48,441 bases of DNA, from NCBI GenBank assembly GCA_019115085.1, contig DXEF01000023.1, positions 1-48,441 of the forward strand, written 5' to 3'. This stretch comes from Candidatus Agathobaculum pullicola. Its GTDB lineage: Bacteria; Bacillota; Clostridia; Oscillospirales; Butyricicoccaceae. The notes below the pieces were generated by a model. The model had not been told where the DNA came from, did not search any database, and saw only the letters and a program-made list of their open reading frames with translations. The position numbers and the translations under genes are program-made. Of this stretch, positions 1 to 15,497 are shown one piece after another (the stretch's first letter is position 1; the number at the start of each line of letters is the position of its first letter).

Positions 1-163
1 CGATGGGGTTGCGGATGGACTCCAGGGTGGCGTTATACAGGCTGTCCCAGTCCTGGGGCAGGCAAGGGGGATCGGGGACGGTCTCCCCGGGGATGAAGAT
101 GTCGGTGCTGTCGGGCAGCTCGGCGCTCATAAAGCCGTTGCCGTACTCAAAATCCAGTTTCAT
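1..163 (-). CDS. larA: LarA-type nickel-dependent racemase, N-terminal fragment (partial)
   Basis: Only the first 54 codons are in the window; the gene runs off the left edge. The start is the ATG at 163, preceded by GGAGG. The peptide opens MKLDFEYGNGFMSAELP and reaches LESIRNPI. A short beta-rich opening followed by 'aL.nPi' is the usual N-terminus of the LarA/DUF2088 family, whose members racemise or epimerise 2-hydroxy acids with a nickel pincer cofactor. The substrate cannot be read from this fragment. It is the last visible gene of the operon that starts at 6374, 17 bp after the isomerase gene, so it probably acts in the same sugar or hydroxy-acid pathway. The family call rests on a short N-terminus and is moderate. 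Confidence 0.55.
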   Translation of the reverse strand, partial: MKLDFEYGNGFMSAELPDSTDIFIPGETVPDPPCLPQDWDSLYNATLESIRNPI

Positions 164-179: not shown

Positions 180-1016
180 TTAGTGGCCCATATAAAGGCG
201 AATAATCTCCAGATACTCCTCCGGGTAGAAGCCGATCTCCCCGCTGAAGCGGGTGAGGGCGATGAGCCCGCCGTCGATCTCCGGGATGGAGGCGAGCATG
301 GCGGCGTTGTCGGCCTTCAGGCCGCCGCCGTACACCACGGGGAGGCCGCCGGTGCGCTCCTTGACAAAGCGGGCGATCTTCTCGATGTAGGGCTTGTCGG
401 CCGGGGTCTTGCCGGGGCCGATGGACCAGATGGGCTCGTAGGCGATGACCACGGCGCTCATGTCCACCCCGTCCAGGCCGATGGAGAGCTGGTCGCCCAG
501 CACCTGCTGCCACTGCTCCTGCTCCTCGCTCTTCTCACCGATGCAGTAGAGCACCTTGAGGCCGGCGGCCTGGGCGCACTTGATCTCCTGGTTGAGCAGG
601 CGGTTCACGGCGGCGGTGTCGGTGACGCCGGCCTCGGCGAGGATACCGGCTTTGTCGTTACGCTCCTCGCAGTGGCCGATGAGGACCCAGCCGCAGCCCA
701 GGGCGGCGGCGGCGTGGGCGGGACGGTTGGTGGTGAAGGCGCCGAAGTTGCCGCCCACGGCGGTATTCATGCGGTAAACGCTCTGAGAGCCTACCTGAAC
801 CGGGCTGTTTTCACAGCGGGCAGCCACAGCGCCCAGAATATGGGCCTCGGGGAAATACTGGACAAACTCAGCCTCCGCGGGGTCGTACTTCTTCAAACCC
901 TCCTGCGTATGCTCCACAATATATCTGCCCCAGTCAGCCACCGGAGCAATACGGTTGACGCCGCCAAATTCCACGGGCACGTCAAACCGCTTCAAATTCA
1001 GATACAGATGCTTCAT
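180..1016 (-). CDS. Divergent triosephosphate-isomerase-like sugar-phosphate isomerase
   Basis: A TIM-barrel protein of 278 residues. I chose the ATG at 1016, eight bases after AAGGAG, over the GTG at 1025, which abuts the Shine-Dalgarno. The TIM catalytic set can be seen: Asn and Lys in LNLKRFD near the N-terminus, the general-acid His in GHCEERND (normally GHSERR) and the base Glu in AYEPIWSIGPGKTP. The phosphate-loop end differs (IDGGLIALTRFSG instead of [11 protein letters not shown]). A canonical tpiA is present at 41704-42474, so this is a specialised paralogue. Its position between a class II aldolase and larA suggests isomerisation of a triose or tetrose phosphate made by that aldolase; this role is inferred. 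Confidence 0.8.
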   Translation of the reverse strand: MKHLYLNLKRFDVPVEFGGVNRIAPVADWGRYIVEHTQEGLKKYDPAEAEFVQYFPEAHILGAVAARCENSPVQVGSQSVYRMNTAVGGNFGAFTTNRPAHAAAALGCGWVLIGHCEERNDKAGILAEAGVTDTAAVNRLLNQEIKCAQAAGLKVLYCIGEKSEEQEQWQQVLGDQLSIGLDGVDMSAVVIAYEPIWSIGPGKTPADKPYIEKIARFVKERTGGLPVVYGGGLKADNAAMLASIPEIDGGLIALTRFSGEIGFYPEEYLEIIRLYMGH

Positions 1017-1028: not shown

Positions 1029-2177
1029 TTATTTCTTATAGAAGTCAATCATGTCCTCCAAGGACTTCTGCTCCACCAGAGGCGCTCTTCCATAAGAGCC
1101 GAAATTGACGATCAGGGAGCCTACGGCCTCCTTCACGCCGGCCTCTACCCTGCTCATCAACTGAGCCACGTCGTCGTCGGGCACGTTGTCGGTGAGAACC
1201 GTATCCATGATGGGCGGGAAGAACACGCGGGGATCGAAGGCGGACTTTTTCTCCTCCAGCAGGGCATACACACCACCGATGGAGGGGCTCTTCTGCAGAG
1301 CGGGCTGCTGCGCGAACAGCTCCTTCATGTTGCGGGTGACAGCCAGACGGATATCGGTGTCCACATTGATTTTGCGGATACCGCAAGGGATGGCGGAAAC
1401 CAATTCATCCACGTTGATGCCATAGGCGTTCTGGATATCGCCGCCCAGGTCGTTGATCTCCTTGACGATGTACTGGGGCACGGTAGAGGAGCCGTGAGAC
1501 ACCAGCGCGCAGAAGATACCCAGACGGTTGATGCACTCCTTGATGGCGATGGGAATTTCCCGGCGGAGCTTGGCGTCCTTGCCCTTGTTGGCGCCGTGCT
1601 GGGTGCCATAGGAGATCGCCAGCGCGTCCACCTCGGTTTTCTGGATGAACTCCACCGCATCCAGCGGGTTGGTGTAGGTGGAAGTGGCGGCGAAAACATG
1701 ATCCTCCTGACCGCCCAGCACACCCAGTTCACCCTCAACAGACACGCCCCGGGCATGCGCGTATTTGACCACCTCACGGGTCAGTTCGATGTTTTGCTCC
1801 AGCGGCAGGGAGGAACCATCGATCATGACGGAGGTGTAGCCCCCATCGATGGCGGCCACGCAGGAGTCGAAGTCCTTACCGTGATCCAGATGGAGTACCA
1901 CAGGGATGGGAGAATTTTCGCCGTACTTCTTCACGGCGTTGGCAATGTTGCGGGCACCCTTCTTTTTGTCCTCCAGCGTGCCGTTGGCAAAGTCCACCCG
2001 ACCGCCCATGAAGGCGTTGGCCAGGTCGGCCCCTTGCAGGATGGCAGGGGAACGGAAGGTCTCGTGCATCTCAATTACGGCCTTGGCCTGGGCCACGGCG
2101 TTGACGTTAAAGGCGCCCTGGGCGTAGTTATACTTCTCAGCGGCTTCCATCAAAGGTCTCAGGGGTACCAGCGGCAT
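1029..2177 (-). CDS. Class II (zinc) fructose/tagatose-bisphosphate-type aldolase
   Basis: A protein of 382 residues whose start codon follows AAGGAGGAA. Class II aldolase signatures are clear: LHLDHGKDFDSC with the catalytic Asp and first zinc-ligand His, SVEGELGVLGGQED, SYGTQHGANKG with a second His, and ALVSHGSST with a third. The C-terminal NAYGINVDELV/KINVDTDIRLA region fits the substrate phosphate-binding segment. These enzymes reversibly cleave ketose 1-phosphates or 1,6-bisphosphates to dihydroxyacetone phosphate and an aldehyde. It is longer than GatY/KbaY (about 285 residues) and resembles the longer FBA branch. It follows nagA by 13 bp and precedes the isomerase by about 12 bp. The exact sugar cannot be settled from sequence. 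Confidence 0.88.
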   Translation of the reverse strand: MPLVPLRPLMEAAEKYNYAQGAFNVNAVAQAKAVIEMHETFRSPAILQGADLANAFMGGRVDFANGTLEDKKKGARNIANAVKKYGENSPIPVVLHLDHGKDFDSCVAAIDGGYTSVMIDGSSLPLEQNIELTREVVKYAHARGVSVEGELGVLGGQEDHVFAATSTYTNPLDAVEFIQKTEVDALAISYGTQHGANKGKDAKLRREIPIAIKECINRLGIFCALVSHGSSTVPQYIVKEINDLGGDIQNAYGINVDELVSAIPCGIRKINVDTDIRLAVTRNMKELFAQQPALQKSPSIGGVYALLEEKKSAFDPRVFFPPIMDTVLTDNVPDDDVAQLMSRVEAGVKEAVGSLIVNFGSYGRAPLVEQKSLEDMIDFYKK

Positions 2178-2190: not shown

Positions 2191-3333
2191 TTAATTTTCT
2201 CCGGCGTACACGTTGATGCCGGCTACATAGGTTGCTTTTACATTCAAATCCTGATCCAAAATCACCAGATCGGCGTCCTTACCGAGATCGATCGTTCCCT
2301 TTCGGTGATCCATCCCAATGAGGCGGGCCGGGTTGGCGGTCAGCAAGGGAAGCACTTTCTCCACGCTCTCCCCCGTAAACTTCACCAGATTCTTCAGGGC
2401 CTGCCCGGTGGTCAGGGTGGAACCGGCACGGACGCCGTTTGATACCAGCTTGGCATCGCCATCCTCTACCACCACGTCATTGACGCCCAGCTTATAGTGT
2501 CCGTCGGGCAGGCCGGCGGCCTGAATGGAGTCGGTGACCGCCACCACCTTGTCCCAGCCCTTGCAGGCCAGCAGCATCCGGACCGAGCCGGGATGCAGAT
2601 GTCGTCCGTCACAGATGGCCTCGCAGCACACGGGACGCTCCAGCACTGCCCCCATGATACTGGGGCGGTGCTGATGGAACAGGCCCATGGCATTAAACGT
2701 ATGCGTACAGCAGGCGGCCCCCTTGTCAATGGCGGCGCAGGCGGTCTCATAGTCCGCCCCCGAGTGGCCGATGGCTACGGTGACATGACCGGCGATTTCC
2801 CCAATCATGTCCACCACCCCCGCTACCTCTGGGGAGACGGTGATATAGCGCACGGCGCCGTCGGCGGCCTGCTGATATTTGCGGAAAAGCTCAGCGTTTC
2901 CCTTTTGCAGCAGATGCTCCGGCATGGCCCCCTTATACTCTACCGACAGGAAGGGGCCTTCCAGATGAATACCCATCAGCTGCGCTCCGGTCACCGGAGC
3001 ACCCATGGCGGCCTTAGCATGCTCGATGCACCACAGGGTCTGTTCCTCTGTGTCCGTCAAAATCGAGCACAGCCAGCCCGTAGTACCGTTTTTGGCGAAA
3101 AACCGTCCTATCTTGGCCAGATCCTCTGCTGTGGCGGCGTTAACGTCCACCCCATCGCCGCCATGGGTGTGCAAATCCAGAAAACCGGGGACCAGCATCT
3201 GTCCCTCCAGATCCACCACCTCATCGGCCTTCCCGCCGAATCCGGCAATGCGCCCGTCCTGCACCAGCAGGTCGGTCTCCTGAAAATATCCATTTACATA
3301 AACTCTGCCATGGGTAAAGAGTGTTTTTCTCAT
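2191..3333 (-). CDS. nagA: N-acetylglucosamine-6-phosphate deacetylase
   Basis: A 380-residue amidohydrolase of normal NagA length. It removes the acetyl group from N-acetylglucosamine 6-phosphate in the cytoplasm, giving glucosamine 6-phosphate. Visible motifs in order are PGFLDLHTHGGDG (metal-binding HxH), GIHLEGPFLS (metal-ligand Glu), AIGHSGA, CTHTFNAMG, ICDGRHLHP and AVTDSIQAAGLPDG with the catalytic Asp, then GKDADLVILD near the end. It lies 9 bp after nagB, so the two are co-transcribed and form the standard two-step entry of GlcNAc-6-P into glycolysis. The operon is unusual in continuing into an aldolase, an isomerase and a LarA-type racemase. Confidence 0.93.
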   Translation of the reverse strand: MRKTLFTHGRVYVNGYFQETDLLVQDGRIAGFGGKADEVVDLEGQMLVPGFLDLHTHGGDGVDVNAATAEDLAKIGRFFAKNGTTGWLCSILTDTEEQTLWCIEHAKAAMGAPVTGAQLMGIHLEGPFLSVEYKGAMPEHLLQKGNAELFRKYQQAADGAVRYITVSPEVAGVVDMIGEIAGHVTVAIGHSGADYETACAAIDKGAACCTHTFNAMGLFHQHRPSIMGAVLERPVCCEAICDGRHLHPGSVRMLLACKGWDKVVAVTDSIQAAGLPDGHYKLGVNDVVVEDGDAKLVSNGVRAGSTLTTGQALKNLVKFTGESVEKVLPLLTANPARLIGMDHRKGTIDLGKDADLVILDQDLNVKATYVAGINVYAGEN

Positions 3334-3342
3334 AGTCTCACC

Positions 3343-4158
3343 TCAGAATGGCTGACCGGCTGCAACAGCGTTGGCATAGATGACGGCATCCGGATGGTTT
3401 TGCAGCAAAGTGGCAGGGAAATGGGCGGTTACCTCGCCATACGCCGCCTGACGGATCACCGAGCGATGCCACTCCCGGAATACGCCCAGACGAACCTTGC
3501 GTGCTCCCAGAATCTGCTTGATCCCGATGGTCACCGCCCGCTTGGGCATGGCGTCAATGGCGCCGCACCGGTCGCCGATGGCATTGGCGGTACGGGTCTC
3601 GGGGTTGAGCGAGAGCGCCCGGGTGCCCTGCGCGGCAAACTCTTCTGCGGTCATGTCCTCACGGGATTCGTTAAAGGCCAGATGCCCGTTGATTCCGATG
3701 CCGCCGAAGGCGATATCCACGCCCCCCAGCTCTTCGATGAGGCGATCCACATACCCGGGGTCGGCGGGGTTGGGGAACACTCGCTGCTCGGGTGACATCA
3801 GCAGCTCGGAATCCACCTTGGTGTATACGGTGCGCTCCATGAACCCTCGGAAGGACAGCGGACTCTCCTTGTCAATGTAGGTATCATCGTCATTGAGATA
3901 CTCGTCCATGTTGATAAACCAGCAGTTTTTCAGGCTGACCCGATCTCGGTTCACCAAACGGACAAAGATAGGATACTGGCCCACCGGACCCACAGGGCAG
4001 ATAAATACGGTCTTCTCCCCTTTCTCGTTGTGGGCCTTGATGGTGTTAATCATCTCCATGGCGATTTCATAAAACACTTCGCCGGAGTCCCCCAGCTTAA
4101 TCACTGGAATCTTGGCATCCTTGCCCAGATCCTGCGCAGAAATGTGATAATAGTCCAT
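3343..4158 (-). CDS. nagB: Glucosamine-6-phosphate deaminase/isomerase family protein
   Basis: A 271-residue protein of the NagB/6-phosphogluconolactonase fold, close to family length. NagB converts glucosamine 6-phosphate to fructose 6-phosphate and ammonia. The sequence shows WFINMDEYL (the Asp used in ring opening and isomerisation), FGGIGINGHLAFNES with the catalytic His-Glu pair, and a C-terminal HRSVIRQAAYGEVTAHFPATLL segment. The start ATG follows GAAAGGAAGAA. It sits between the response-regulator gene (33 bp gap) and nagA (9 bp). The N-terminal 40 residues are longer and more divergent than in E. coli NagB, so a related amino-sugar deaminase remains possible. Confidence 0.88.
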   Translation of the reverse strand: MDYYHISAQDLGKDAKIPVIKLGDSGEVFYEIAMEMINTIKAHNEKGEKTVFICPVGPVGQYPIFVRLVNRDRVSLKNCWFINMDEYLNDDDTYIDKESPLSFRGFMERTVYTKVDSELLMSPEQRVFPNPADPGYVDRLIEELGGVDIAFGGIGINGHLAFNESREDMTAEEFAAQGTRALSLNPETRTANAIGDRCGAIDAMPKRAVTIGIKQILGARKVRLGVFREWHRSVIRQAAYGEVTAHFPATLLQNHPDAVIYANAVAAGQPF

Positions 4159-4191: not shown

Positions 4192-4857
4192 TTAAAATAG
4201 GTGGGACACGTTCAGATCCCGGATGGTATCCACGATCTCCTTGGTGCGGGTACAGCCAAACTTGCGCAGCAGGCTCTTGATCTGTGTCTTGACGGTGACC
4301 ACCTCCACGCACCGCTGGGCGGCGATCTCCCGTATCTTCTTTCCCTCCAGCAGCAGCCGCACCAGATCCCGCTCGGCGGTGGTGAGCTGAGAGACTGTAC
4401 TGATGAAGAAGAGCAGGGAGCGCTCCGAGGTACGAAGGCGGGAGTACTCCTTGAGCAGAAGATTCTGGATCTTGCCATCCAGCATGGGCTGGCCAGCATA
4501 GGCGCTGCGGATGTGCTGAAGCAGTTCTTCATCCGCACAGCCCTTGACGATATAATCCACCGCTCCCGCGCCCATAGAGGTGAGGATCATGTTGTCGGTC
4601 TCGTGGGCGGTCAGGAAGAGAATCTTAGCATCCGGCTTCTTCTCCAGAATGTGCTCTGTGGCGTAGATGCCGGCGGTGGTGGTTTCCATCTCGATGTCCA
4701 TTAGCAGAAGGTCGAAATCAGTCTCCATGGACAGGGCCTCAATCTCCTTGCCGCTGGCAGCACTCCCCACCACAGTGATATCCTCCTGCTGGTTGAGGAC
4801 ATCACACAAATCCTCGCGGATCAGGTCAAAGTCCTCTGCAACCAAAATGCGAATCAT
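4192..4857 (-). CDS. NarL/LuxR-type response regulator
   Basis: 221 residues. The receiver domain occupies about residues 1-125: acidic pocket VAEDFDLIRED, phospho-acceptor Asp in DLLLMDIEME, Thr in ILFLTAHET and Lys in DYIVKGCADEE. A LuxR-type helix-turn-helix lies at about 155-215 (TTAERDLVRLLLEGKK, then VTVKTQIKSLLRKFG). It is the cytoplasmic output of the kinase encoded just upstream; start and stop overlap as ATGA at 4854-4857. Because it is the second gene of the nag-aldolase operon, it probably controls that operon, possibly through the palindrome at 6424-6444. The target is inferred from position. Confidence 0.92.
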   Translation of the reverse strand: MIRILVAEDFDLIREDLCDVLNQQEDITVVGSAASGKEIEALSMETDFDLLLMDIEMETTTAGIYATEHILEKKPDAKILFLTAHETDNMILTSMGAGAVDYIVKGCADEELLQHIRSAYAGQPMLDGKIQNLLLKEYSRLRTSERSLLFFISTVSQLTTAERDLVRLLLEGKKIREIAAQRCVEVVTVKTQIKSLLRKFGCTRTKEIVDTIRDLNVSHLF

Positions 4858-6374
4858 TCTTTTTCTCCTCCCTTCCCCCGGCGGGCAGTACCATAGCGGG
4901 GCAGAAGGACGAAGAAGGAGGCGCCTCCTTCCGGTCTGTTCTCCACCCGAAGAGAACCCAGATGGCTGCGCACAATGGTACGGACATGGTATAGGCCCAT
5001 GCCCCAGTTGAAGTTGGTATTCTTGCTGGAATAGAAGGGCTCAAAAATATGCTTGAGCGCCTCCGGTTCGATGCCGGTTCCGTGATCCTTGACCTCCAGA
5101 ACGGTGTACAGCCGTTCTTGGTGGCTCACCAGCTCCACCGGCTTATCCTTCTCATATCCGATGGTGGCCTCCCATGCGTTGATCAGCAGGTTGTACAGGG
5201 CCTCGCTCAGATAGTTCTCATCGGCCAACACTTGGATCTGCCGATCCACCAGCGACCGTACCCGGCCATCCGGATACTTCTTATGGAACCGATCCAAGGT
5301 GATCTCCTCCAGACGGCCCAGCGTCACCGGCACCAGACGCACCGACTTGGCTTTGACCGTGCGGTAAAGCTCCTCCGAACGGGTGATGAGCAGCTCGTTA
5401 TTGTCACACAGGCTTTCGGCGTAACCGCGCACCTTGTCCAGATTGGGCTCCTCCTTCTGCAGCTCGCCTCGGATACGCTTGTATAGCACCCGGTTGGCCA
5501 GCAGCTGGTTCTTTATGCTATGCACGAATACCGACGCCCCTGTGCGGGCCACGTCGAACTTGCGCTCCAGCACCACCTCGTTTCGGTCGGACACAAAACT
5601 GGTATGGGTGTAACGCAGCAGGCTGCCCAAGCCGAAAATCCCGCAGACGATGTTGATGACCACCAGAATCACATAGCCCCCCACGCCGAGGGCAAACTGG
5701 AGGTAGCCCACACCCTTGATCCAGGTGTAGTCATAGCTGTAAAAACGGTAAATCTGACCGGGATCCTGCCCGCAGTAGAGTACGTATAAAACGGACAGCA
5801 CCGTCAGCGATATCACGATGGGCAAAAACTTACGCCGAGAGAAGCGCATGGTAGTGGAACAGTACTCTATCACCAGCAACACCACCGATACCACGACGTA
5901 GCACAGCACCCAGCTGTAGGAAAACTGCACCAGTATGTCCTGGGCCACCGGAAACCGTGCCACCAGCGCCCGGTAGACATTGGGGTAATAGATCACCAAA
6001 GAAACCGCCGGCAACACCAGCAACAGCCGACTTAACAGCGGCGCTTTCCGCAGGGCGGAGAGCATGGAGTACCGAAAGGCCAGCTGCACCAGAAACAACG
6101 GAAACAGATAGCGGCCCAAAGCCACAGTATAGCCCAGCTGCCCAAGTGTTACAAACCGGTACTGTACCCAAGTACGGATCTTCCAGTTGAAAAACAGGAA
6201 ATTCATAACCTCTTGAGACAAGCCGCCCTTTTTGGCAATGAAAATCATCAGCCCCACGAAATAGACTGTCAGGCTCAGGCACAGTCCCATCAGCAGCAGG
6301 GTCTCTTTGTTCTTTTTCACACACAGCACCAGAATCGAGCCGATCAACAGCCCTACTGCCAGCAGCAAAAGCAT
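4854..6374 (-). CDS. Membrane-bound sensor histidine kinase
   Basis: 506 residues. The N-terminal half has about seven hydrophobic helices with short loops (LLLAVGLLIGSILVLCV first, IVCGIFGLGSLL last), so the sensor is membrane-embedded with no large outer domain. The kinase core follows: H-box VFVHSIKNQLLANR, N-box NLLINAWEA, G1 VKDHGTGIEP, F-box IFEPFYSSK and G2 WGMGLYHVRTIV. It partners the overlapping response regulator. The start ATG at 6374 follows AAGGAGGG, and this is the first gene of the seven-gene transcription unit. The ligand is unknown; the adjacent genes suggest an amino sugar, a sugar phosphate or a hydroxy acid. Confidence 0.92.
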   Translation of the reverse strand: MLLLLAVGLLIGSILVLCVKKNKETLLLMGLCLSLTVYFVGLMIFIAKKGGLSQEVMNFLFFNWKIRTWVQYRFVTLGQLGYTVALGRYLFPLFLVQLAFRYSMLSALRKAPLLSRLLLVLPAVSLVIYYPNVYRALVARFPVAQDILVQFSYSWVLCYVVVSVVLLVIEYCSTTMRFSRRKFLPIVISLTVLSVLYVLYCGQDPGQIYRFYSYDYTWIKGVGYLQFALGVGGYVILVVINIVCGIFGLGSLLRYTHTSFVSDRNEVVLERKFDVARTGASVFVHSIKNQLLANRVLYKRIRGELQKEEPNLDKVRGYAESLCDNNELLITRSEELYRTVKAKSVRLVPVTLGRLEEITLDRFHKKYPDGRVRSLVDRQIQVLADENYLSEALYNLLINAWEATIGYEKDKPVELVSHQERLYTVLEVKDHGTGIEPEALKHIFEPFYSSKNTNFNWGMGLYHVRTIVRSHLGSLRVENRPEGGASFFVLLPRYGTARRGKGGEKE

Positions 6375-6409
6375 GGCACACCCTCCTTATGTTTACGGTG
6401 TCTGATGCT

Positions 6410-6444
6410 ATTGTAGCGTGAGTCGCTCATTTTGTAAATGAGCG
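6410..6444 (-). promoter_or_regulatory. Promoter with palindromic operator upstream of the TCS-nag operon
   Basis: On the minus strand there is a -35 TTTACA (6433-6438), a 17-bp spacer and a -10 TACAAT (6410-6415). The -35 sits inside a perfect palindrome, CGCTCATTT-tgt-AAATGAGCG (6424-6444). Binding there would block RNA polymerase, so repression is the simplest reading. The regulator could be the operon's own response regulator or an unlinked repressor. Confidence 0.6.
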
Positions 6445-6456
6445 GATTACGCAGGA

Positions 6457-6487
6457 AAGGGGCGGCGGTGTTCCGCCGCCGCCCCTT
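6457..6487 (-). terminator. GC-rich stem-loop after the ABC-transporter operon
   Basis: AAGGGGCGGCGG (6457-6468) pairs with CCGCCGCCCCTT (6476-6487) around a 7-base loop, just past the stop of the substrate-binding protein gene. It separates the two minus-strand operons. There is no good T-run, so it may be a weak terminator. Confidence 0.5.
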
Positions 6488-6499
6488 CTTGGGGTCACA

Positions 6500-7543
6500 T
6501 TAATAGTTGCCGGCTTCGGTCATCACATCAAAGGCAACGTAGTCCTCTACGGGGCATACATCCGCTTCGGTGATGGATCCGCCGCTCAGCAGATTCTGCT
6601 GCTGCAGCTCATAGTAGCCCTTCACAGTACCGTCGGCAACGCCTTCCACTACTTCCTTACCGGTCAGCCAGTCCGCATCGCCGCGCTGGCTGTACATGGT
6701 GTCATAATCCAGCTTTGCCTGATCGGCGCACCACTGTGCCACTTCATCCTGATGCTCGTCAGCAGCGTAATCCATCGCCTTGAACAGAGCGCGCACAAAG
6801 CGGGTGGCTACGTCACCGTTCTCCTCCAGATATTTGGGAGTGGCGATCCAGCTTGCCAGCGAAACAGTGGTGTCGGCAAAGGTCAGGTTGTCTGTGAGCT
6901 TAGTTGCATCCGGCATACCCTCCAGAATGGTCAGGCTGTTGGGCGACCAGGTAGCGCAGGCATCCACGCCGCCGGACATCATCGCAGTCACGATAGAGGG
7001 GGCATCCATATCCATGGCCTGAATGTCGTCCATGGTCATGCCGTTGGCGGTCAGAGAGTTGCGCAGGATGTCCTCACTGGAGGTACCGGAAGAGTAGGCA
7101 ACGGTCTTACCCTTCAGATCCTGTACGGTGGTGATGCCAGGGCCGCCGATGAGGGCGTCGCCGTTGGAGATGTGGGACAGGGCGATGATGGTAGCGTTGC
7201 CCTGAACGCACAGCTTATGGGCGCCTTGACCGATGTAACCGAAGTTGACCGAGCCATTCTCCATAGCGGCGATGATCGTGGGGCCATCCTCGAACTGCGT
7301 GAAGGTGACGTTCAGGCCTTCCTCAGCGAAGTAGCCCTTCTGCTGCGCGGTCATCATGCTCCACATGCCGCCATAGTTCGGCATGTAACCGATGTTGATG
7401 TCCACAGTCTCAGCGGCGGATGACCCGGAACCACCTTCGGCACTCTCACCGCCGGAATTCGTACCCTGGGTATTATTGCCGCAACCTGCCAGCGCACCGC
7501 CCAGCATCGCAGTAGCCAGAAGCATAGCAAAAAACTTTTTCAC
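6500..7543 (-). CDS. SsuA/TauA-type ABC substrate-binding lipoprotein
   Basis: 347 residues starting at a GTG (7543) seven bases after GGAGG. A lipoprotein signal peptide ends in the lipobox LAGC at about residue 20, followed by a Ser/Gly/Asn-rich linker. The mature part is an NMT1/SsuA-like domain with NIGYMPNYGGMW, YFAEEGLNVTFTQFEDGP, MENGSVNFGYIGQGAHKL, LKGKTVAYSSGTSSED and a central DACATWSPNS segment. Such proteins bind sulfonates, nitrate, bicarbonate, riboflavin or thiamine precursors outside the cell and deliver them to the cognate permease. It is the last gene of the operon with the ATPase and permease. The substrate cannot be determined from sequence. Confidence 0.9.
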   Translation of the reverse strand: MKKFFAMLLATAMLGGALAGCGNNTQGTNSGGESAEGGSGSSAAETVDINIGYMPNYGGMWSMMTAQQKGYFAEEGLNVTFTQFEDGPTIIAAMENGSVNFGYIGQGAHKLCVQGNATIIALSHISNGDALIGGPGITTVQDLKGKTVAYSSGTSSEDILRNSLTANGMTMDDIQAMDMDAPSIVTAMMSGGVDACATWSPNSLTILEGMPDATKLTDNLTFADTTVSLASWIATPKYLEENGDVATRFVRALFKAMDYAADEHQDEVAQWCADQAKLDYDTMYSQRGDADWLTGKEVVEGVADGTVKGYYELQQQNLLSGGSITEADVCPVEDYVAFDVMTEAGNY

Positions 7544-7622
7544 ATTGATTCCTCCTGTTTACAATTTTTTGTAGATTCTTTTCCTCTTTTTATTGCAACG
7601 GCCTATGCCGTTCCAACCGAAC

Positions 7623-8414
7623 TTATTTCCGAACCTCCAGATACTCCTGATACACCTGACTCCAGATCTCGTTTTTCAGTTCCAGAAAACGGGGGGTCAT
7701 CTTAGTCTCCTGTGTACGGGGATAAGGAATATCGATGTTGACGATGGACTTGATGCGTCCGGGACGGGCGGACATGATGATGACCTTCTGGGCCAGAATG
7801 ATGGCCTCCTCCACGTCGTGCGTGATAAAGAAGCAGGTCTTACGATCCTTCTCCCAAGTCTCCAGCAGCTCGGTTTGCAGCTGGGTGCGGGTCTGTGCGT
7901 CCAAGGCGCCAAACGGCTCATCCATCAGCAACACCTCAGGATCTGCGGCGTAGGCGCGGGCAATGGCCACGCGCTGCTTCATGCCGCCGGACAACTCCTT
8001 GGGATAGTGGTCAGCGAACTTGACCAGATCCACCTTCGCAAGGTACTTCATGGCCTCGTCCTCCGCCCGTTTTCCCTTAATCCCCTTCATCTCCAGCGCG
8101 AACATGACATTCTTCTTGACCGTCAGCCAAGGGAATAGGGCGTACTGCTGGAAGACCACGCCGCGCTCGGTGCCGGTACCGGTGACCTTTTTGCCCTTGC
8201 AGTAGACGGCGCCGGAGGTGGCGTCATGAAGACCGGCGATGATATTCAGAAGGGTGGATTTACCGCAGCCGGAAGGGCCTACCACGCAGATGAACTCATT
8301 TTCATAGATATCCAGATTCACCCCGTTGAGGGCAACCATCTCGCCGTTGCGGGTATTGTACACCTTGCGGACGTTATCAATTTTGACGATCAGATTTCTC
8401 TCTTCTCCTGCCAT
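7623..8414 (-). CDS. SsuB/TauB-type ABC transporter ATPase
   Basis: 263 residues, one complete nucleotide-binding domain. Walker A is VGPSGCGKSTLLN (about residue 46), the Q-loop is VVFQQYALFPWLTV, the signature is LSGGMKQRVAIARA, Walker B is VLLMDEPFGALD and the switch His is in FFITHDVEEAI. The PFGALDAQTR and PGRIKSIVNIDIPYPR stretches are typical of the nitrate/sulfonate/taurine (NrtD/SsuB) group. The start overlaps the end of the permease gene by 25 bp, consistent with translational coupling. It energises uptake through the adjacent permease. Confidence 0.93.
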   Translation of the reverse strand: MAGEERNLIVKIDNVRKVYNTRNGEMVALNGVNLDIYENEFICVVGPSGCGKSTLLNIIAGLHDATSGAVYCKGKKVTGTGTERGVVFQQYALFPWLTVKKNVMFALEMKGIKGKRAEDEAMKYLAKVDLVKFADHYPKELSGGMKQRVAIARAYAADPEVLLMDEPFGALDAQTRTQLQTELLETWEKDRKTCFFITHDVEEAIILAQKVIIMSARPGRIKSIVNIDIPYPRTQETKMTPRFLELKNEIWSQVYQEYLEVRK

Positions 8415-9175
8415 CCCGTCAGCTTCCTTTCCAAGAATTTAATCACTTTTTCCAATGTAATGCCGATAATACCGATGATAATGACGTAGGCCAGCATAGG
8501 AGCTGAGTCAAACGTGTTGTTGAGCGAGCGGATACGCATGCCCAGACCGGCCATCGCACCAGTAGATTCGGCTGCAATCAGAGTGGTCAGCGCAACCGAT
8601 GCACCCAGCCGGACTGCCGTCAGGATGAAGGGCAGGGTTGCGGGGGTGATGACCCGGATAAAGATGTCCTTATCGGTAGCGCCCAGCACCCGAGCGGCTT
8701 TGATAAGCGTCTCATCCACATTGATGACACCCTGATAGATGGTCACACACATGATGAGGAAGCAGGCGATGGTAATAACGATTATCTGAGGCCGCCGACC
8801 TACGCCGGCACAGATAACGATCAGAGGTACGTAGGCCAGCGGGGGGATGTTACGGACGAACTGAATCCAAGGCTCCAAGATATTACGCACCGGCACGTAC
8901 CATGCCATCAGGATGGCAACAGGCAGTGCGATGATAAAGCCGATAGCATAGCCCATACCTACCGAAATCAGGCTGCTGCTCAGATCCTGCCAAAAGGCAC
9001 CTACCTCCACCATGCGCACGAGACCCTCAAAGGTCACCACTACGTTGGGGAATGCCCGGGATGTCTGGGGGACGATGGACATGATATACCAAACCAGCAT
9101 GGCCACCGCAAAAGAGATCAGCAACCAGACTTTTGGTGGGATCCGGTTAGCCAGGGACGGTTTCTTCTGTTCCAT
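8390..9175 (-). CDS. SsuC/TauC-type ABC transporter permease
   Basis: 261 residues with about six membrane helices: the first in PPKVWLLISFAVAMLVWYIM and later ones around SVGMGYAIGFIIALPVAILMA and IIVITIACFLIMCVTIY. The ABC-coupling EAA-type loop reads DETLIKAARVLGATDKDIFIR, followed by VITPATLPFILTAVRLG. This is the binding-protein-dependent inner-membrane component family of sulfonate, taurine and nitrate importers. The start ATG follows AAGGAGCG. It is the first gene of its three-gene operon. The operon faces away from the recombinase gene, so the promoter lies in 9176-9535. Confidence 0.93.
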   Translation of the reverse strand: MEQKKPSLANRIPPKVWLLISFAVAMLVWYIMSIVPQTSRAFPNVVVTFEGLVRMVEVGAFWQDLSSSLISVGMGYAIGFIIALPVAILMAWYVPVRNILEPWIQFVRNIPPLAYVPLIVICAGVGRRPQIIVITIACFLIMCVTIYQGVINVDETLIKAARVLGATDKDIFIRVITPATLPFILTAVRLGASVALTTLIAAESTGAMAGLGMRIRSLNNTFDSAPMLAYVIIIGIIGITLEKVIKFLERKLTGWQEKREI

Positions 9176-9535
9176 TCTCTTCGCTCCTTCTTACTTTCTA
9201 TCTGCTGCTTGCAGGATTGAGACAGCTGTACTCAACCCTTTGTATATCCAGTATAGTTGTTTCTGCTAAAATAGAAAGTATGAAGTTTTATCATCCCAAT
9301 ATCTCTCGCCTTCCAATAAATCCATGCTTTCCCATAAGTTTACTGGTTATGCCGGAGTGGAACGCTGATGACCCGTTTGAAATGGCGCCGGAAAGAGACG
9401 GAAAAAGTTTCAAGCTTATATATATATATTAAAAAACTGCCGGATGATTTTTTCAAGAGGCAATTTACTTTTTTTCTAAGCGGACAGGCAAGCGGACAAA
9501 TTCTATACATACGATGAACACAGGAGGGAACGCGT
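9176..9535. other. Divergent 360-bp intergenic region between ABC operon and recombinase
   Basis: No gene is seen on either strand. An AT-rich tract lies at about 9418-9436. AAGCGGACA occurs twice in direct orientation with a 12-bp period (9478-9486 and 9490-9498), followed by a TATACA -10-like sequence at about 9504. These could be a promoter and operator for the 48-residue ORF and the recombinase. A TATACT-like -10 near 9255 on the minus strand may serve the ABC operon. Confidence 0.35.
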
Positions 9536-9682
9536 ATGAAAAAAAGAGACTTGCCTGTCGTACATTGTTACTACACCGATGGTGATAAAAGCCTTTCAGA
9601 TATTTTGGAAGAATCTTTTCGGCTTTATCTTGCACGCACCCTTGTTATGACGGAGCAACCCATTGGACAAAATCGGCCGTAA
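9536..9682 (+). CDS. 48-residue protein preceding the serine recombinase
   Basis: ATG at 9536 follows a strong AGGAGGG. The product, starting MKKRDLPVVHCYYTDGDKS and containing LSDILEESFRLYLARTL, has a short N-terminal strand and one amphipathic helix. Its stop codon (9680-9682) directly abuts the next possible start, so it is co-transcribed with the recombinase. I do not recognise a named family. Small proteins next to large serine recombinases often assist excision or control directionality, which is one possibility here. The strong ribosome-binding site and the tight coupling support a real gene. Confidence 0.65.
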   Translation: MKKRDLPVVHCYYTDGDKSLSDILEESFRLYLARTLVMTEQPIGQNRP

Positions 9683-9709
9683 ATGGCCGCCTATCCCGGG
9701 AGGTCTGGC

Positions 9710-11287
9710 ATGTACTTAGAAATAAGCAACCCCACGGACTACCATGTGGCTTTATACATCAGACTATCAAAGGAGGATGAGAACGAAGGGCCATCCCAAA
9801 GCGTTACCAATCAGGCGTCCTTGCTCCAACAGTTCGTTCATCAGCACCGCTTGTCTGTTTACGATACCTATGTAGACGACGGCTGGAGCGGCACCCGCTT
9901 TGACCGCCCCGGTTTCCAGCGGATGATCGCTGACATTGAGGCCAGAAAGGTCAATATGGTCATCACCAAGGATCTCTCCCGTCTGGGCCGCGATTACATC
10001 ATGACCGGCCACTATATGGAGCGGTACTTTCCGGAACACCGGGTGCGGTACATCTCTCTATTGGACGGCATCGACACCGGCGTGGACTCTACCGCCAACG
10101 ATATCACTCCCTTCCGGGCCATCATGAACGACATGTACGCCAAGGATATCTCCAAAAAGATTAAGTCGGTCAAGCGGGATAAACAGCGGAAAGGGCAGTT
10201 TATCGGCGGCAAGCCCCTGTACGGATACCGGATGCACCCGACGCAGAAAAACAAGATCGTCATTGACGAGCAAGCAGCTCCGGTGGTGCGGCGCATCTTT
10301 GCCTTGGCGCTTTCCGGCATGAGCTGCCGCAAGATTGCGATGACGCTCAATGATGCCGGCATACCCACACCGGCCGCCTATTGCGGCTGGAAGGTTGGGA
10401 GCCCCGGCCCCTACACCGGCTTGTGGAGCGGCGAGCGAATCGCTGAAATGCTGAGAAATGAGACTTACATCGGCAACATGGTGCAGGGACGCATGGTGAA
10501 GATCAGCTATAAGTCCAAGAAGTGTTTGCGGCAATCACCGGAAAACTGGGTGGTGGTGGAAGGTACCCACGAGCCGATCATTGACCCGGAAACCTTTCAA
10601 AAGGTGCAGATGCTGCTAAACAGCCGCAAGCACACCCGAAGCCGGACATACGACTTTCTGCTGAAAGGGCTGATCTTCTGCCACGAGTGCGGCCATCCGT
10701 TGGCGGTGCTCAATCGCAAAAACGCCGCCGGAGCGGATCGCCTGTTCTTTGTCTGCCGAACCTACCAGCGGTTTACCAAGGCCGGCGTCTGCACCTGCCA
10801 CTCCATCAAGGAAGAAACGGTAAATCAGGCCGTGCTCGCCAAGGTGCGTGAGATCTGTCAGGCCTATCTCAATCCCGACCGGCTGCGCCCGATTGCGCAA
10901 GCGGCCTTAGAGCATGCCGGCAAATCCACCGGCCGTGAAGCAGAGATACCAGCCCTGCAAGCCAAAATCACGGCTCTGACCACCCATTTGGATCAGATGT
11001 ACTTGGACCGGCTGGGCGGTCTGCTCTCCGAAGAGGACTTCCAGCGCATTTATCAAAAGGTCAAGATGGACCGCACCGCTCTGGAGGAGCGGCTGAAACG
11101 CCTGCACGAGCAGGCAAAACAACCGGTGAACATCGATGAAAAAGCCAAGGCGCTGGTCAAACGCTTTTTGGACGCGGCACCGACCAGCCGGGAACTGCTG
11201 GTCAGCCTCATCGAACGGGTCGAACTGACCGAGGAAAAAGAGATCCTCCTCACATTCCGCTTCCACGAGTTGGAGGCGATTTCTTAA
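9710..11287 (+). CDS. Large serine recombinase (TnpX/SpoIVCA-type)
   Basis: 525 residues from the ATG at 9710, seven bases after GGGAGG; a start at 9683 is also in frame. The resolvase domain shows the catalytic Ser in VALYIRLSKEDE, then VDDGWSGTRFDRPGFQRM, ITKDLSRLGRDY, and FRAIMNDMYAKDISKKIKS. A recombinase domain (SCRKIAMTLNDAGIPTP, RNETYIGNMVQGR) and a zinc ribbon (FCHECGHPL ... CRTYQRFTKAGVCTC) follow, ending in a coiled coil (about residues 395-470). All expected parts are intact, so it is probably active. Its stop lies about 20 bp before the broken end of a sigK-like gene. That places it at an element boundary, as with the recombinases that rebuild sigK during sporulation. Confidence 0.95.
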   Translation: MYLEISNPTDYHVALYIRLSKEDENEGPSQSVTNQASLLQQFVHQHRLSVYDTYVDDGWSGTRFDRPGFQRMIADIEARKVNMVITKDLSRLGRDYIMTGHYMERYFPEHRVRYISLLDGIDTGVDSTANDITPFRAIMNDMYAKDISKKIKSVKRDKQRKGQFIGGKPLYGYRMHPTQKNKIVIDEQAAPVVRRIFALALSGMSCRKIAMTLNDAGIPTPAAYCGWKVGSPGPYTGLWSGERIAEMLRNETYIGNMVQGRMVKISYKSKKCLRQSPENWVVVEGTHEPIIDPETFQKVQMLLNSRKHTRSRTYDFLLKGLIFCHECGHPLAVLNRKNAAGADRLFFVCRTYQRFTKAGVCTCHSIKEETVNQAVLAKVREICQAYLNPDRLRPIAQAALEHAGKSTGREAEIPALQAKITALTTHLDQMYLDRLGGLLSEEDFQRIYQKVKMDRTALEERLKRLHEQAKQPVNIDEKAKALVKRFLDAAPTSRELLVSLIERVELTEEKEILLTFRFHELEAIS

Positions 11288-11306
11288 CGGGCATCGTTTA
11301 CATTAG

Positions 11307-11381
11307 GCGCGGCGCTATGTATCGCGCATTGAAAAACGCGCGCTGGAAAAGCTGCGCGACGCGCTCCGCGAAAGCGTATAG
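11307..11381 (+). pseudogene. sigK: 3' end of a sigK-like sporulation sigma-factor gene (severed)
   Basis: The frame reads ARRYVSRIEKRALEKLRDALRESV and then TAG. This is the end of sigma-70 region 4.2; the SigK-type ending is 'ISRSYVSRIEKRAL.K' followed by a short tail. A TAG lies directly upstream in frame (11304-11306), and no start or remaining sigma domain is present, so the gene is cut just before this point. The recombinase gene ends at 11287. The 5' part should lie on the plus strand beyond the left edge if this is a skin-type insertion; no sigma-like frame exists in 1-9.5 kb. SigG or SigE ends differ more (for example 'VSRLEKAAI'). Confidence 0.72.
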
Positions 11382-11417
11382 CTGCACCGGGCATATCCCC
11401 CCGCTTTATACAGGCCA

Positions 11418-11444
11418 ATGCTGTGGTGTCGGCGGCCACAGCAT
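11418..11444 (+). terminator. Stem-loop after the sigK 3' fragment
   Basis: ATGCTGTGG (11418-11426) and CCACAGCAT (11436-11444) form a perfect 9-bp stem with a 9-base loop. There is no T-run, so it may be a weak terminator of sigK or just structured RNA. Confidence 0.35.
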
Positions 11445-11483
11445 CGGTCTGGCCCGTCCCGCACGGATTTATCCGGTCTGATA

Positions 11484-11512
11484 TTGCGGTGCATTGGCAA
11501 ACATGCTATAAT
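11484..11512 (+). promoter_or_regulatory. Sigma-A-type promoter for the ThyX-like gene
   Basis: TTGCGG (11484-11489), a 17-bp spacer and TATAAT (11507-11512) with a TG extension. It lies 26 bp before the start codon of the gene at 11539. Confidence 0.6.
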
Positions 11513-11538
11513 CAACGTAAAAAAGCGAGGGAACACCG

Positions 11539-12267
11539 ATGAAAACGTATTTGAATCAGATTTCGGGCATAGACGACGCAATCGTTTCCATGTTTATGAG
11601 CAAACGCTCCTGGACGCGCGAAAAGGAACTGCATATTCGCGAAATTTGCCGCACGGTACTGCGTGCGGACGGCGGCTTGCGGGAGTATGACAGCACACTG
11701 GCCGATGCCTTTGCCGAATTCGCGGACTGGATGGACAAGCTGACCAAATGGGGCTGGAAACACACCACCATGCTGCGGTTTATCGATATGTCTGTCACCG
11801 TGGAGGGACTGCACCGCGCCGGTCAGGACGACTGGGACGCACACGCCAAGCGCTTTAACAACCGCATCATCCGTTCGAGCACCCGCCTTGCCTCCTTTTC
11901 TTACGAAATGTCGGCGTGGTATCAGGACAAAATTCTGCCGACCGACCTTGCTCTGCAGGAGCTTGGGCTTACCGTACCGCAGACCATCGAGCACGACGGG
12001 GTGAAATACGTCAAGGCGGTCAATGGCTATATTCGGGAGGACGTGGCGGACAACCCGGATGTCAAGCGCGGGCTGTATATGCTGAGTATTCCGAGCAACT
12101 TCATTTTTAAAATTGACCTGACCGAATGGGGGCATGTTTTCAAGGAACGCAATGCAACCGGTTCCGCTAACCCCGAAGTCAAGCAATGCTGCGAGAGCAT
12201 CGCCGACCAGATAGAGCAGTTCCACAAGCAGTTTAACCGGGATCTGTTTCTCAAGATTCTCAACTGA
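11539..12267 (+). CDS. ThyX-like (FAD-dependent thymidylate synthase-related) protein
   Basis: 242 residues, with start ATG after GCGAGGG. Two blocks recall ThyX. One is KHTTMLRFIDMSVTVEG followed by NNRIIRSSTRLA, in the place of the 'LEH.sftf.ieg' and RHRxxSxNxxSxR motifs. The other is a C-terminal DLTEWGHVFKERN segment, similar to the ThyX 'LrelrHflklR' helix that contacts substrate. The canonical RHR signature is replaced by NRIIRSSTR, so thymidylate synthesis is not assured. The protein has its own promoter and terminator and lies directly downstream of the sigK remnant. It could instead be a ThyX-fold protein of unknown role. Confidence 0.45.
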   Translation: MKTYLNQISGIDDAIVSMFMSKRSWTREKELHIREICRTVLRADGGLREYDSTLADAFAEFADWMDKLTKWGWKHTTMLRFIDMSVTVEGLHRAGQDDWDAHAKRFNNRIIRSSTRLASFSYEMSAWYQDKILPTDLALQELGLTVPQTIEHDGVKYVKAVNGYIREDVADNPDVKRGLYMLSIPSNFIFKIDLTEWGHVFKERNATGSANPEVKQCCESIADQIEQFHKQFNRDLFLKILN

Positions 12268-12310
12268 ATATAAAAGAGACGCGCCACGGTGTCTCCCATC
12301 ACCAAGCAGC

Positions 12311-12348
12311 AAAAACGGCATAGCTTTCGCTATGCCGCTTTCTTTTTT
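12311..12348 (+). terminator. Terminator of the ThyX-like gene, shared with the convergent gene
   Basis: CGGCATAGC (12316-12324) pairs with GCTATGCCG (12329-12337) around TTTC, followed by a T-rich run on the plus strand. The convergent gene's stop codon lies inside the stem, so it probably acts in both directions. Confidence 0.8.
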
Positions 12349-13016
12349 CCCTTTTGACATTCCTGCTTCATGGCGAAATAACCCATCAGCACGGCCCAAA
12401 CATAAGCGCAGGTCTTGGGAATCATCAGCATCCCGACCATAGGCACAGCATCGGCCCACAAAACCACCGGAATATAGAACGCAAAGCTCAGCACGATCGT
12501 CAGCCACATCCAACGGAAGGCACGGTCATGATGCCTTTTCGCCGCCTGATAAAACAGCACAATGACCACCAGTCCCAAAAGCGCAAAGGGAATGTTCCGG
12601 TAAATCCCCCACGAGAGCGGCGCATCCGCGCGCAGCCACTGATTCTGCGGCATCAGGCACAGAACAATGCGCAGTCCCGCCAAACCATACACTGCTGCCG
12701 TCAGACCGCCATGCCCGCTGACCTGATACCTTTGCCGCCAAACACGATACAGCAGCACATAGAAAATGGTCATGGTAATGGAAGTGACGCACTTCCCTAT
12801 TCCCAGCGCGGCTGTATAGTTTTCCAGACCTGTTGTGCAAAGCGCCACTGCACGCGGCACCAGATGAAAGGCATCGCCGGTTCCCAATATCACAGCCATC
12901 CATCCAAATAATCGGAATTGGCGGCTGCCACGACTGCCCCGAATCATCAAAACTCCGACGGTGATGACCAAGGACAGATATACAATATCAAACAGCGTTT
13001 CCATCATTGCCTGCAT
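12330..13016 (-). CDS. Seven-helix integral membrane protein, unknown function
   Basis: 228 residues with about seven hydrophobic segments, starting DIVYLSLVITVGVLMI and ending with a Lys-rich cytoplasmic tail (ECQKGKKKAA). Short basic loops such as RGSRGSRQFR follow the positive-inside rule. I do not recognise a named family or catalytic motif. It is the last gene of a three-gene operon with a TetR regulator and a four-helix membrane protein. Its start is 3 bp from the stop of the preceding gene, suggesting coupled translation. TetR control suggests a transport, envelope-stress or resistance role, but nothing in the sequence proves this. Confidence 0.75.
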   Translation of the reverse strand: MQAMMETLFDIVYLSLVITVGVLMIRGSRGSRQFRLFGWMAVILGTGDAFHLVPRAVALCTTGLENYTAALGIGKCVTSITMTIFYVLLYRVWRQRYQVSGHGGLTAAVYGLAGLRIVLCLMPQNQWLRADAPLSWGIYRNIPFALLGLVVIVLFYQAAKRHHDRAFRWMWLTIVLSFAFYIPVVLWADAVPMVGMLMIPKTCAYVWAVLMGYFAMKQECQKGKKKAA

Positions 13017-13019
13017 ATG

Positions 13020-13472
13020 TTACACATCCTTTCCTTCCGCTCGTTCCCGCATGTTGACAGCGTCCAAGGCCGCTTTGCCATAGTTGCGGCCAAACCAGAC
13101 ACCGGCCAGCAGCAGCGCGGCGCCTAATCCGGAATAGAACACGGCGATAAACCGGTCGGGCGCGATGCCGGACACCCGCAGACCGATTCCACCGGTCATC
13201 ATCACCACCATAATGCCAAAAGCCTTTCCATCGAAAAACTTGAGGAAAAATTGCCGCTCCTCTGCATAGCCAGTGATGCGCGCCGTGTGCTTCCGCACCA
13301 GTTTCCCAAAGATAAACTTTTGGAAAATGGCAAAAACCAGCACGGACAGCAGCAGATTCCATACCGTGATATAAGCCGGATAGGCCAGAACGCCGATACG
13401 GAAAATATTAAATCCCGCCGCGCACCATACCAGACAGGCGATAAGCAGCAGTGTATTGCGCTTTACTTTCAT
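13020..13472 (-). CDS. Four-helix integral membrane protein, unknown function
   Basis: 150 residues from the ATG at 13472, which follows AAAGGAAA; upstream in-frame starts lack a ribosome-binding site. Four hydrophobic segments are visible (TLLLIACLVWCAAGFNIF, VWNLLLSVLVFAIFQKFIF, IMVVMMTGGIGLRVSG, VFYSGLGAALLLAGVWFG). The loop between helices 2 and 3 is basic (LVRKHTARITGYAEERQF). It is the middle gene of the tetR operon, 68 bp after the regulator and 3 bp before the seven-helix protein. The two membrane proteins may act together. No function is assigned. Confidence 0.75.
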   Translation of the reverse strand: MKVKRNTLLLIACLVWCAAGFNIFRIGVLAYPAYITVWNLLLSVLVFAIFQKFIFGKLVRKHTARITGYAEERQFFLKFFDGKAFGIMVVMMTGGIGLRVSGIAPDRFIAVFYSGLGAALLLAGVWFGRNYGKAALDAVNMRERAEGKDV

Positions 13473-13540
13473 ATTCTGTTTCCTTTCGTGTGAATACCGC
13501 TTCGTTTTCGGGACAAAAACCTCCGCGGAACAGAGTTTTA

Positions 13541-14098
13541 TCAATAAAGTGTCCTGCGTACAATTTCCAAAACGACCGAGGGGTCATATTCCTGCCGCTG
13601 CAATGCAGACAGCATCAGAGAAAACAGCGCATCCGCGAACTTCTCAGCCGTGAACTGTTCATCGAAGGCATCCGGTCGAATGTCGGCATCCCGCTTCAAA
13701 ACAGCGCACAATCCATCCAAAATATGCTCCCAGATTTGCTGCATCCGACGTCTTCCGTCCGGCTTATCCTCCGGCATAAAGCCCAAGGAATGCAGCGCAA
13801 AAAAGCCGGGATATCGCTTGCAGCCGTATTCCATGCGCTCATACATCCAGGCGATACATGTCTGGATATCCTGAAATGCCGCCTCGTCCTCCGGCCGATG
13901 GAAAATCTCACACCAGACGCTTTCTACAATAGCGCCGACAAGCTCTGTTTTAGAGGAAAAATAATTGTAAATAGAACCGACCGATACACCGCAGGCCGCT
14001 GCAACCGAACGGATATGCACCGCCGACCATCCTTGCTGCTGCATCAGTTCCCGGCTCGTTTTCAGAATTTCTTCTTTTGACGTCACGATGGTATTCAT
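13541..14098 (-). CDS. TetR-family transcriptional regulator
   Basis: 185 residues from the ATG at 14098 after GAGGTGAAAG. An N-terminal TetR helix-turn-helix is clear at about residues 8-55: EEILKTSRELMQQQG, then HIRSVAAACGVSVGSIYNYFSSKTELV cut here into two pieces. The C-terminal part is a helical ligand/dimer domain. A consensus promoter with a 15-bp palindrome over its -10 lies just upstream (14113-14154), the normal layout of an autorepressed tetR gene. The two downstream membrane-protein genes are in the same unit and should be induced by the regulator's ligand, which is unknown. Confidence 0.92.
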   Translation of the reverse strand: MNTIVTSKEEILKTSRELMQQQGWSAVHIRSVAAACGVSVGSIYNYFSSKTELVGAIVESVWCEIFHRPEDEAAFQDIQTCIAWMYERMEYGCKRYPGFFALHSLGFMPEDKPDGRRRMQQIWEHILDGLCAVLKRDADIRPDAFDEQFTAEKFADALFSLMLSALQRQEYDPSVVLEIVRRTLY

Positions 14099-14112
14099 TC
14101 TTTCACCTCTAT

Positions 14113-14154
14113 ATGAACATTGTTCATTATAGTCTGTCATTGCCTGCATGTCAA
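14113..14154 (-). promoter_or_regulatory. Consensus promoter with TetR-type operator
   Basis: Minus strand: perfect -35 TTGACA (14149-14154), 17-bp spacer, perfect -10 TATAAT (14126-14131). The palindrome ATGAACA-T-TGTTCAT (14113-14127) overlaps the -10 edge and the start of transcription, so regulator binding would repress its own operon. Confidence 0.85.
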
Positions 14155-14222
14155 GCAAAATACTGTACAAAAAGCGTATTCATTCGGAAAATCCCCATGT
14201 CTGCGCTCCCCTATTTTCAAGG

Positions 14223-14258
14223 AAAAAAAGGGCGCTGATATTCCATCAGCACCCTTTT
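14223..14258 (-). terminator. Terminator of the cotJ operon
   Basis: GGG-GCTGAT and ATCAGC-CCC arms pair around a short loop (14230-14254). On the minus strand they are followed by a run of seven T, about 60 bp after the cotJC stop. Confidence 0.8.
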
Positions 14259-14317
14259 CCCTACCTGTATTGATTTTATCTCACACTTTTAATGCCTGCA
14301 AATATCGGCTGCCCGCT

Positions 14318-15480: not shown

Positions 15481-15497
15481 CCGCAGGAAAAAAGACG

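Follow-up and report, generated by a model that had tools for sequence, protein, structure and literature searches.

Skin elements that split sigK are in print for Clostridioides difficile, Bacillus subtilis, the Bacillus cereus group, Clostridium tetani and an Alicyclobacillus phage (PMC5025042, PMC10745906, PMC5553647, PMC13141910). In the published account of the C. difficile element, the recombinase sits immediately before the 3′ part of sigK, attL and attR carry inverted repeats, and excision needs a small directionality factor (RDF) controlled by sigma-E and SpoIIID (PMC5025042). The B. subtilis skin also splits sigK and is described as prophage-like, with its recombinase SpoIVCA under sigma-E and SpoIIID (PMC5025042). 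Non-phage elements are described as well, including an island in sigK of Bacillus cereus biovar anthracis that is excised during sporulation (PMC10745906) and the non-viral, gene-intervening gin element of Bacillus cereus ATCC10987, which undergoes developmental excision (PMC5595907).

We analysed a window of 48,441 nucleotides, the entire contig C18 of a Candidatus Agathobaculum pullicola bin (G000; 66 contigs, 82% complete, 0.34% reported contamination). The window very probably holds the right (3′) end of a skin-type element that intervenes in sigK, was inserted by its own recombinase and would be excised in the mother cell to restore sigma-K. As in the C. difficile skin (CD1231 recombinase, CD1234 RDF), sigK is split and the recombinase lies just before its 3′ part (PMC5025042). 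Whereas C. difficile is reported to have a separate 72-aa RDF gene under sigma-E/SpoIIID and a constitutive recombinase (PMC5025042), here an ORF of 46-48 aa directly precedes the recombinase, with one putative mother-cell promoter. The C. difficile element is reported to yield no phage particles (PMC13141910). In contrast to the B. subtilis skin, whose site is described as carrying AATGA (PMC10745906), the core is TATGTATC in region 4.2 and not at the classical mid-sigK site. The B. subtilis skin is prophage-like; no phage gene was recognised on the assembled parts of the G000 island. The biovar anthracis island differs in its restriction-modification cargo and in having its recombinase beside the 5′ part (PMC10745906), and the gin element in sitting in gerE with three serine recombinases (PMC5595907).

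Split sigK and its empty site

The features of the window are listed below.

1..163, minus strand: N-terminal portion of a LarA-like gene truncated at the contig end, cargo (88.9% identical in a 54-aa match with the beginning of the C30:28120-29580 gene)
180..1016, minus strand: triosephosphate isomerase (TPI), cargo (Pfam TIM)
1029..2150, minus strand: class II ketose-bisphosphate aldolase, cargo (NCBIfam TIGR00167 above cut-off)
2191..4158, minus strand: nagA and nagB-like genes, cargo (nagA, TIGR00221 above cut-off; nagB, TIGR00502 below cut-off)
4192..6374, minus strand: response regulator and sensor histidine kinase, cargo (ORFs; histidine kinase NCBIfam matches below cut-off)
6500..9175, minus strand: SsuA/taurine-like ABC transporter (binding protein, ATPase, permease), cargo (SsuA NCBIfam below cut-off; Pfam BPD_transp_1; ATPase by eye)
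9482..9490, plus strand: GGACAGGCA, SpoIIID-like box
9508..9515, plus strand: CATACGAT, sigma-E/sigma-K-type −10
9536..9682, plus strand: 48-aa ORF directly before the recombinase, candidate directionality factor
9710..11287, plus strand: large serine recombinase (ORF opens at 9683; 534 aa from 9683) with Resolvase, Recombinase and zinc-ribbon domains
11291..11315, plus strand: attR island arm, left half of a predicted attP (CGTTTACATTAG...), inverted repeat with the attL island arm on contig C30
11316..11323, plus strand: recombination core TATGTATC, identical to the core at C30:17721-17728
11316..11381, plus strand: sigK 3′ end with stop; joined to C30:17088-17728 it gives 232 aa
11539..12267, plus strand: ThyX-like gene, chromosomal flank (Pfam Thy1 E 5e-5, just under cut-off)

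The initial annotation had seen an intact serine recombinase beside a severed end of sigK, and both parts stand: the 534-aa ORF stops at 11287 and the tail is confirmed by a 7.6-kb alignment. Judging from an alignment of four orthologues, the conserved recombinase start is probably 9710 (MYLEIS). The nearest solved relatives by sequence are TnpX (2mhc, E 4e-26; Tn4451-type) and SPbeta YokA (9dxh, E 5e-17), recombinases that are not known to be dedicated to sigK.

The frame from 11307 reads ARRYVSRIEKRALEKLRDALRESV followed by a stop, the sigK tail, and homology to intact sigK loci starts at 11308. Because of this start and the position of the core at 11316-11323, sigK proper runs from YVS onward and the preceding ARR is island DNA, so that an earlier assignment of 11307-11381 to the last 24 codons of SigK was right for the tail and wrong for its first three residues. 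The tail is not a chance match, since one continuous 7.6-kb alignment at 84% identity links the sequence from 11308 onward to the relative G004, whose sigK locus is intact. The cut falls in the sigK segment that codes for the region 4.2 recognition helix (SRSYVS/RIEK), with the core inside this segment, which bears out the earlier placement of the cut in region 4.2 and away from the classical site.

The 5′ part of sigK had been expected to the left of the window, where it cannot be found because the contig ends there; it was found on contig C30 of the same bin (C30:17118-17729, profile positions 11-212 of 227 in a SigK profile search), where it ends ...GISRSYVSERG and a stop. This profile gave eight matches in the bin, one of them strong; the next-best scored 64 bits, and the weaker matches are taken for other sigma factors. 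The profile search recovered no second full-length SigK in the 82%-complete bin, and with the 5′ partner present on C30 the locus does not show the pattern that the initial annotation had named as contrary evidence, an intact sigK elsewhere with no 5′ partner.

Relatives that lack the insertion provide the comparison that had been suggested. On the intact sigK locus of G004 (L183), C30:13311-17728 aligns to 72-4490 (89%) and window positions 11308-18889 to 4475-12000 (84%), and the two alignments overlap by 16 bases across intact sigK. The same junction is present in the intact-sigK relatives G014 (L184, 16-base overlap) and G002 (L185, 8-base overlap). The three relatives (overlap 8-16 bp) show a clean empty site, which makes C30 and the window opposite flanks of a single insertion. 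The ThyX-like gene of the right flank occurs in 10/60 genomes (the window's counted) and adjoins the sigK match in G002, G004, G005 and G014; in other genomes, G018 among them, it is on a different contig from sigK. The G005 locus (L186) is also continuous across the junction, but there sigK has no 5′ part and contains a stop: the match covers 61-225 with one TAA and adjoins mobile-looking genes (G005:C9:47000-60000). In G076 the SigK match spans 66-226, and these two truncated genes may mark a third interruption point in sigK.

The attL site on C30 reads ...TCGTATGTATCAGAGCGCGGCTAATGTAAACGA and the attR site in the window TCGTTTACATTAGGCGCGGCGCTATGTATCGCGCATTGAA, with inner island arms that are inverted repeats (CGTTTACATTAG / CTAATGTAAACG). 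Symmetrical inverted-repeat arms are the usual look of a serine-integrase attP. Joining the outer arms at the core TATGTATC would give an in-frame SigK of 232 aa, and this predicted product aligns to the intact SigK of G004 with 222/232 identical residues. Among the other islands measured, the arms differ yet remain symmetrical; the two cores are identical in G028, L082 and L099 and differ by one base in G018, L136 and L153. One case per orientation can be restored in frame, G000 and G018. In a search for free circles, a strict attP pattern, which would miss the L112 and G018 arms, matched 0/394 genomes of the order and nothing in viral_contigs. In L075, L102 and L153, an inverted motif of 20-22 bp (about GATAAGCGGCCATTCATC) occurs twice, ~120 bp inside the left island end and immediately ahead of the recombinase start.

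Comparison of the G000 sigK with two intact relatives gave dN/dS values of 0.046 and 0.068, and the interrupted copies of G000 and G018 gave 0.089 between them. For the last 18 sigK codons alone, where changes are very few, dN/dS is higher (0.21-0.60); an intact pair has 0.23 there.

Promoter motifs and proposed control of excision

A small ORF similar to the 48-aa ORF, itself without a Pfam match, was found by pattern before the recombinase in 57/75 related loci, five of 80 having been left out for a recombinase starting within 150 bases of the end. Motifs upstream of this ORF were counted in 56 promoters, two of 58 rows being too short. GGACA(A/G)GCA or a one-base variant is present in 25/56 loci (shuffled mean 0.27) and CATANNNT in 48/56 (shuffled mean 2.3), and the two occur together at near-fixed spacing in 23/56 promoters, with no further instance on either strand of these loci (1.80 Mb for both strands). 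When related promoters are clustered, the box is kept in 6/21 clusters and CATANNNT in 18/21; 2.3% of random 35-base windows hold CATANNNT. A regular expression requiring a sigma-E −35 matched 0/58 promoters. We take the box to match the SpoIIID consensus and CATANNNT the sigma-E/sigma-K −10, and from these motifs mother-cell control of the small ORF and the recombinase can fairly be inferred.

Under the skin-type reading, sigma-E, with SpoIIID, would turn on the small ORF and the recombinase in the mother cell during sporulation. The recombinase would then recombine attL and attR, probably aided by the 46-48-aa protein as directionality factor, the island would leave as a circle, and full-length sigma-K would be made, while the forespore chromosome would retain the island. 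Removal in the mother cell by its own recombinase, as the initial annotation had proposed, belongs to this predicted course. Weighing against the skin-type reading are the absence of strict attP matches from assemblies, the missing middle of the island, the cut sigK of G015 with no orthologous recombinase found, the lack of a strong SigE-like match in the bin, the L084 recombinase at a site outside sigK, the apparently uncut sigK of the L112 and L146 genomes, the box in no more than 6/21 clusters, the 0/58 result for a sigma-E −35 and the higher dN/dS of the last 18 codons.

Other elements use sigK simply as attB, as does an infectious Alicyclobacillus phage reported to be 99.99% identical to a sigK prophage (PMC13141910), and the G000 element could likewise be an ordinary integrative island with sigK as its attachment site and no developmental control, its carriers being stuck in sporulation until chance excision. 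We regard this as unlikely, given that the sigK halves are under purifying selection overall, that mother-cell-like promoter motifs precede the small ORF and the recombinase, and that sigK is restorable in frame in one case of each orientation.

Island cargo and sporulation context

The G000 island has at least 24,152 bases, 12,837 on C30 and 11,315 in the window. Six single-contig islands measure 6.8-10.3 kb core to core (G018, 10,333; G028, 8,559; L082, 7,548; L099, 8,680; L136, 9,826; L153, 6,810), and shorter ones are L131 (~3.8 kb) and L124 (~4.4 kb). In addition to the genes listed above, the G000 cargo includes larE, larB and larC (above cut-offs), a nickel-type binding protein (below cut-off) and the C30:28120-29580 gene, for which LarA-type NCBIfam models score below cut-off. 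TPI (E ≤ 1e-90) has two copies in G000 and gave no match in the remaining 59 of the 60 genomes searched, and is therefore accessory. No phage gene was recognised on C30 or in window positions 1-11315 (by eye, with 10 proteins by NCBIfam; the middle of the island is absent from the assembly). From its gene content the G000 island looks non-viral, with metabolic genes. The nik-larEBC cluster recurs in L155 (61-78% identity), upstream of its recombinase, but is not placeable inside an island there because a search of that genome gave no sigK 5′ half. Cargo in other islands looks different by eye: the island of G018 (L073:8861-19183), in the opposite orientation, has CoA ligases, an indolepyruvate oxidoreductase and a sodium symporter, and L126:4790-9591 has two large glycoside hydrolase-looking ORFs.

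The facing contig ends, C30:29420-30565 and window positions 3-1153, carry two larA-tpi-fba copies with 81% identical DNA over the whole overlap; the two sigK halves are on separate contigs, and the middle of the island is missing from the assembly. The simplest explanation of the pair is a duplication within the island. An assembly repeat was rejected, as the terminal words of 21 to 77 bases recur in neither contig. The 81% identity over 1.15 kb would also suit a chimeric bin, in which two related species contributed C30 and C18 and this exact island was never real. Such a chimera is quite improbable: both flanks fit a single locus of G004 and other relatives, the shared TPI was not found in the 59 further genomes searched, and reported contamination is 0.34%. 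Even in that case, one end of such an island would lie in the window.

With regard to sporulation, the bin holds a Spo0A gene above the profile cut-off (the Spo0A profile also picks up a response-regulator receiver domain at C18:4495-4854) and a SpoIIID match of 107.2 bits against a cut-off of 111.5. Genes identified by eye as cotJC, cotJB and cotJA lie at 14318-15425, ~3 kb off the sigK tail. The profile search returned no strong SigE-like match in this 82%-complete bin, and this, together with a sigK that is split in the assembly, would fit a dead insertion in a non-sporulating host with sigK as a pseudogene. That reading is very unlikely, considering the dN/dS values of 0.046-0.089, the intact recombinase and att arms, and the Spo0A and SpoIIID matches in a bin of such completeness.

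Distribution among relatives

Six of 60 related genomes (the window's counted) have a SigK cut near position 213: G000, G013, G015, G018, G028 and G030. An orthologous recombinase (64-100% identity) is present in five of the six, all cut at 212-214, the G013 gene being partial at a contig end; none turned up in G015, where the contig begins 2.9 kb away from the break. For the other genomes of the 60, no recombinase match was listed above 45% (E ≤ 1e-60). In a family-wide set of 61 genomes, the SigK match stops at 212-214 in ten and near 112-120, the classical type, in six, counts that reflect profile ends only and include three of the ten with an inner stop. Both listed SigK-profile matches of G086 (C17:16913 and C19:1863) are cut near 112-120, and sigE is possibly split there as well. 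A classical-position split is also present in G035 (C1:194044-272815), in the same family as the window's host; it spans ~78 kb with its own recombinase beside the 3′ half, near profile position 114 and thus ~100 positions before the 212 cut, with AAATG shared.

A scan of named genomes gave 178 recombinase relatives, of which the best 80 were kept. Among these 80, 74 recombinases abut a sigK half at the same region 4.2 point: the sigK tail follows the recombinase (configuration A) in 63 by pattern and in L158 by eye, and the recombinase faces the sigK 5′ half (configuration B) in 10. Six loci fall outside this tally. The L084 recombinase (3801-5450), 88% identical to the window's, comes from a bin labelled Spirochaetales; the TATGTAG site it abuts is not sigK, and no SigK match was found in its genome. 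L112, with an attP-like site, and L146, which ends too soon, come from genomes whose SigK match reaches position 223, so that sigK is apparently uncut; L159 ends too soon as well. In L092 and L123 no sigK half was recognised beside the recombinase, but each has a 5′ half elsewhere on the locus, with its cut at the same point. Strain-named carriers include Butyricicoccus pullicaecorum ET57 (G028, also L114), Blautia wexlerae MSK.20.46, Pseudoflavonifractor capillosus An827, Flavonifractor sp. An82, Flintibacter muris DSM 110149 and Oscillibacter valericigenes An907.

Both sigK halves are on one contig in ET57 (8.6 kb), An827 (8.7 kb) and MSK.20.46 (about 6.6 kb).

In a quick tree with 86 rows, 83 family rows (77 assigned to configuration A or B and 6 to neither) stand apart from three distant paralogues (SH-aLRT 98), but the tree says little beyond the family being distinct, as rows were picked by similarity. 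On this tree, orientation B requires seven changes, four of them forced by starred branches.

L112, with its intact attP-like site, was considered as an excised circle, a reading dropped because its contig (L167) lacks a terminal overlap and carries, by eye, uvrA, uvrB, radC and pyrE. In G094 (L167, G094:C40, core at ~15943; L168), the recombinase and the attP-like site lie among housekeeping-looking genes, and sigK is uncut on another contig. An arrangement of this kind could suggest that attL and attR came to lie far apart through chromosomal rearrangement, so that recombination inverts or splits the chromosome and releases no small circle; this is highly improbable for G000, whose flanks match one ancestral locus, and six islands of 6.8-10.3 kb are each on a single contig.

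For the family as a whole, we lean slightly towards a broader reading of these data. It would be a non-viral element family for which the codons of the sigma-K recognition helix serve as a dedicated safe harbour in Oscillospiraceae, Lachnospiraceae and Butyricicoccaceae, with exchangeable cargo (nickel-pincer racemase, sugar and CoA-ligase-like genes). The elements would be carried in vegetative cells and spores and discarded only from the dying mother cell, and thus at no cost to the host at sporulation, and they would flip orientation and move between families.

Skin elements and the classical site are known; the region 4.2 lineage is apparently new within the open papers searched, in which no description of a region 4.2 skin family in these lineages was found. 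The suggestion of an undescribed skin lineage fits within the same limits, since the cut lies in region 4.2 and islands of this type occur repeatedly across many genomes. The skins described in the cited papers are single cases and mostly prophage-like, as far as those accounts go, whereas here dozens of related anaerobes, several already in culture, have the same sigK codons occupied by one recombinase family. The islands are small, with no phage gene recognised, and they yield a natural set of attB, attP, recombinase and small-ORF combinations. In genomes of this kind, sigK may be overlooked or cut short by gene callers, so that sporulation could be misjudged. With this family, programmed gene splitting becomes testable across major spore-forming gut lineages.
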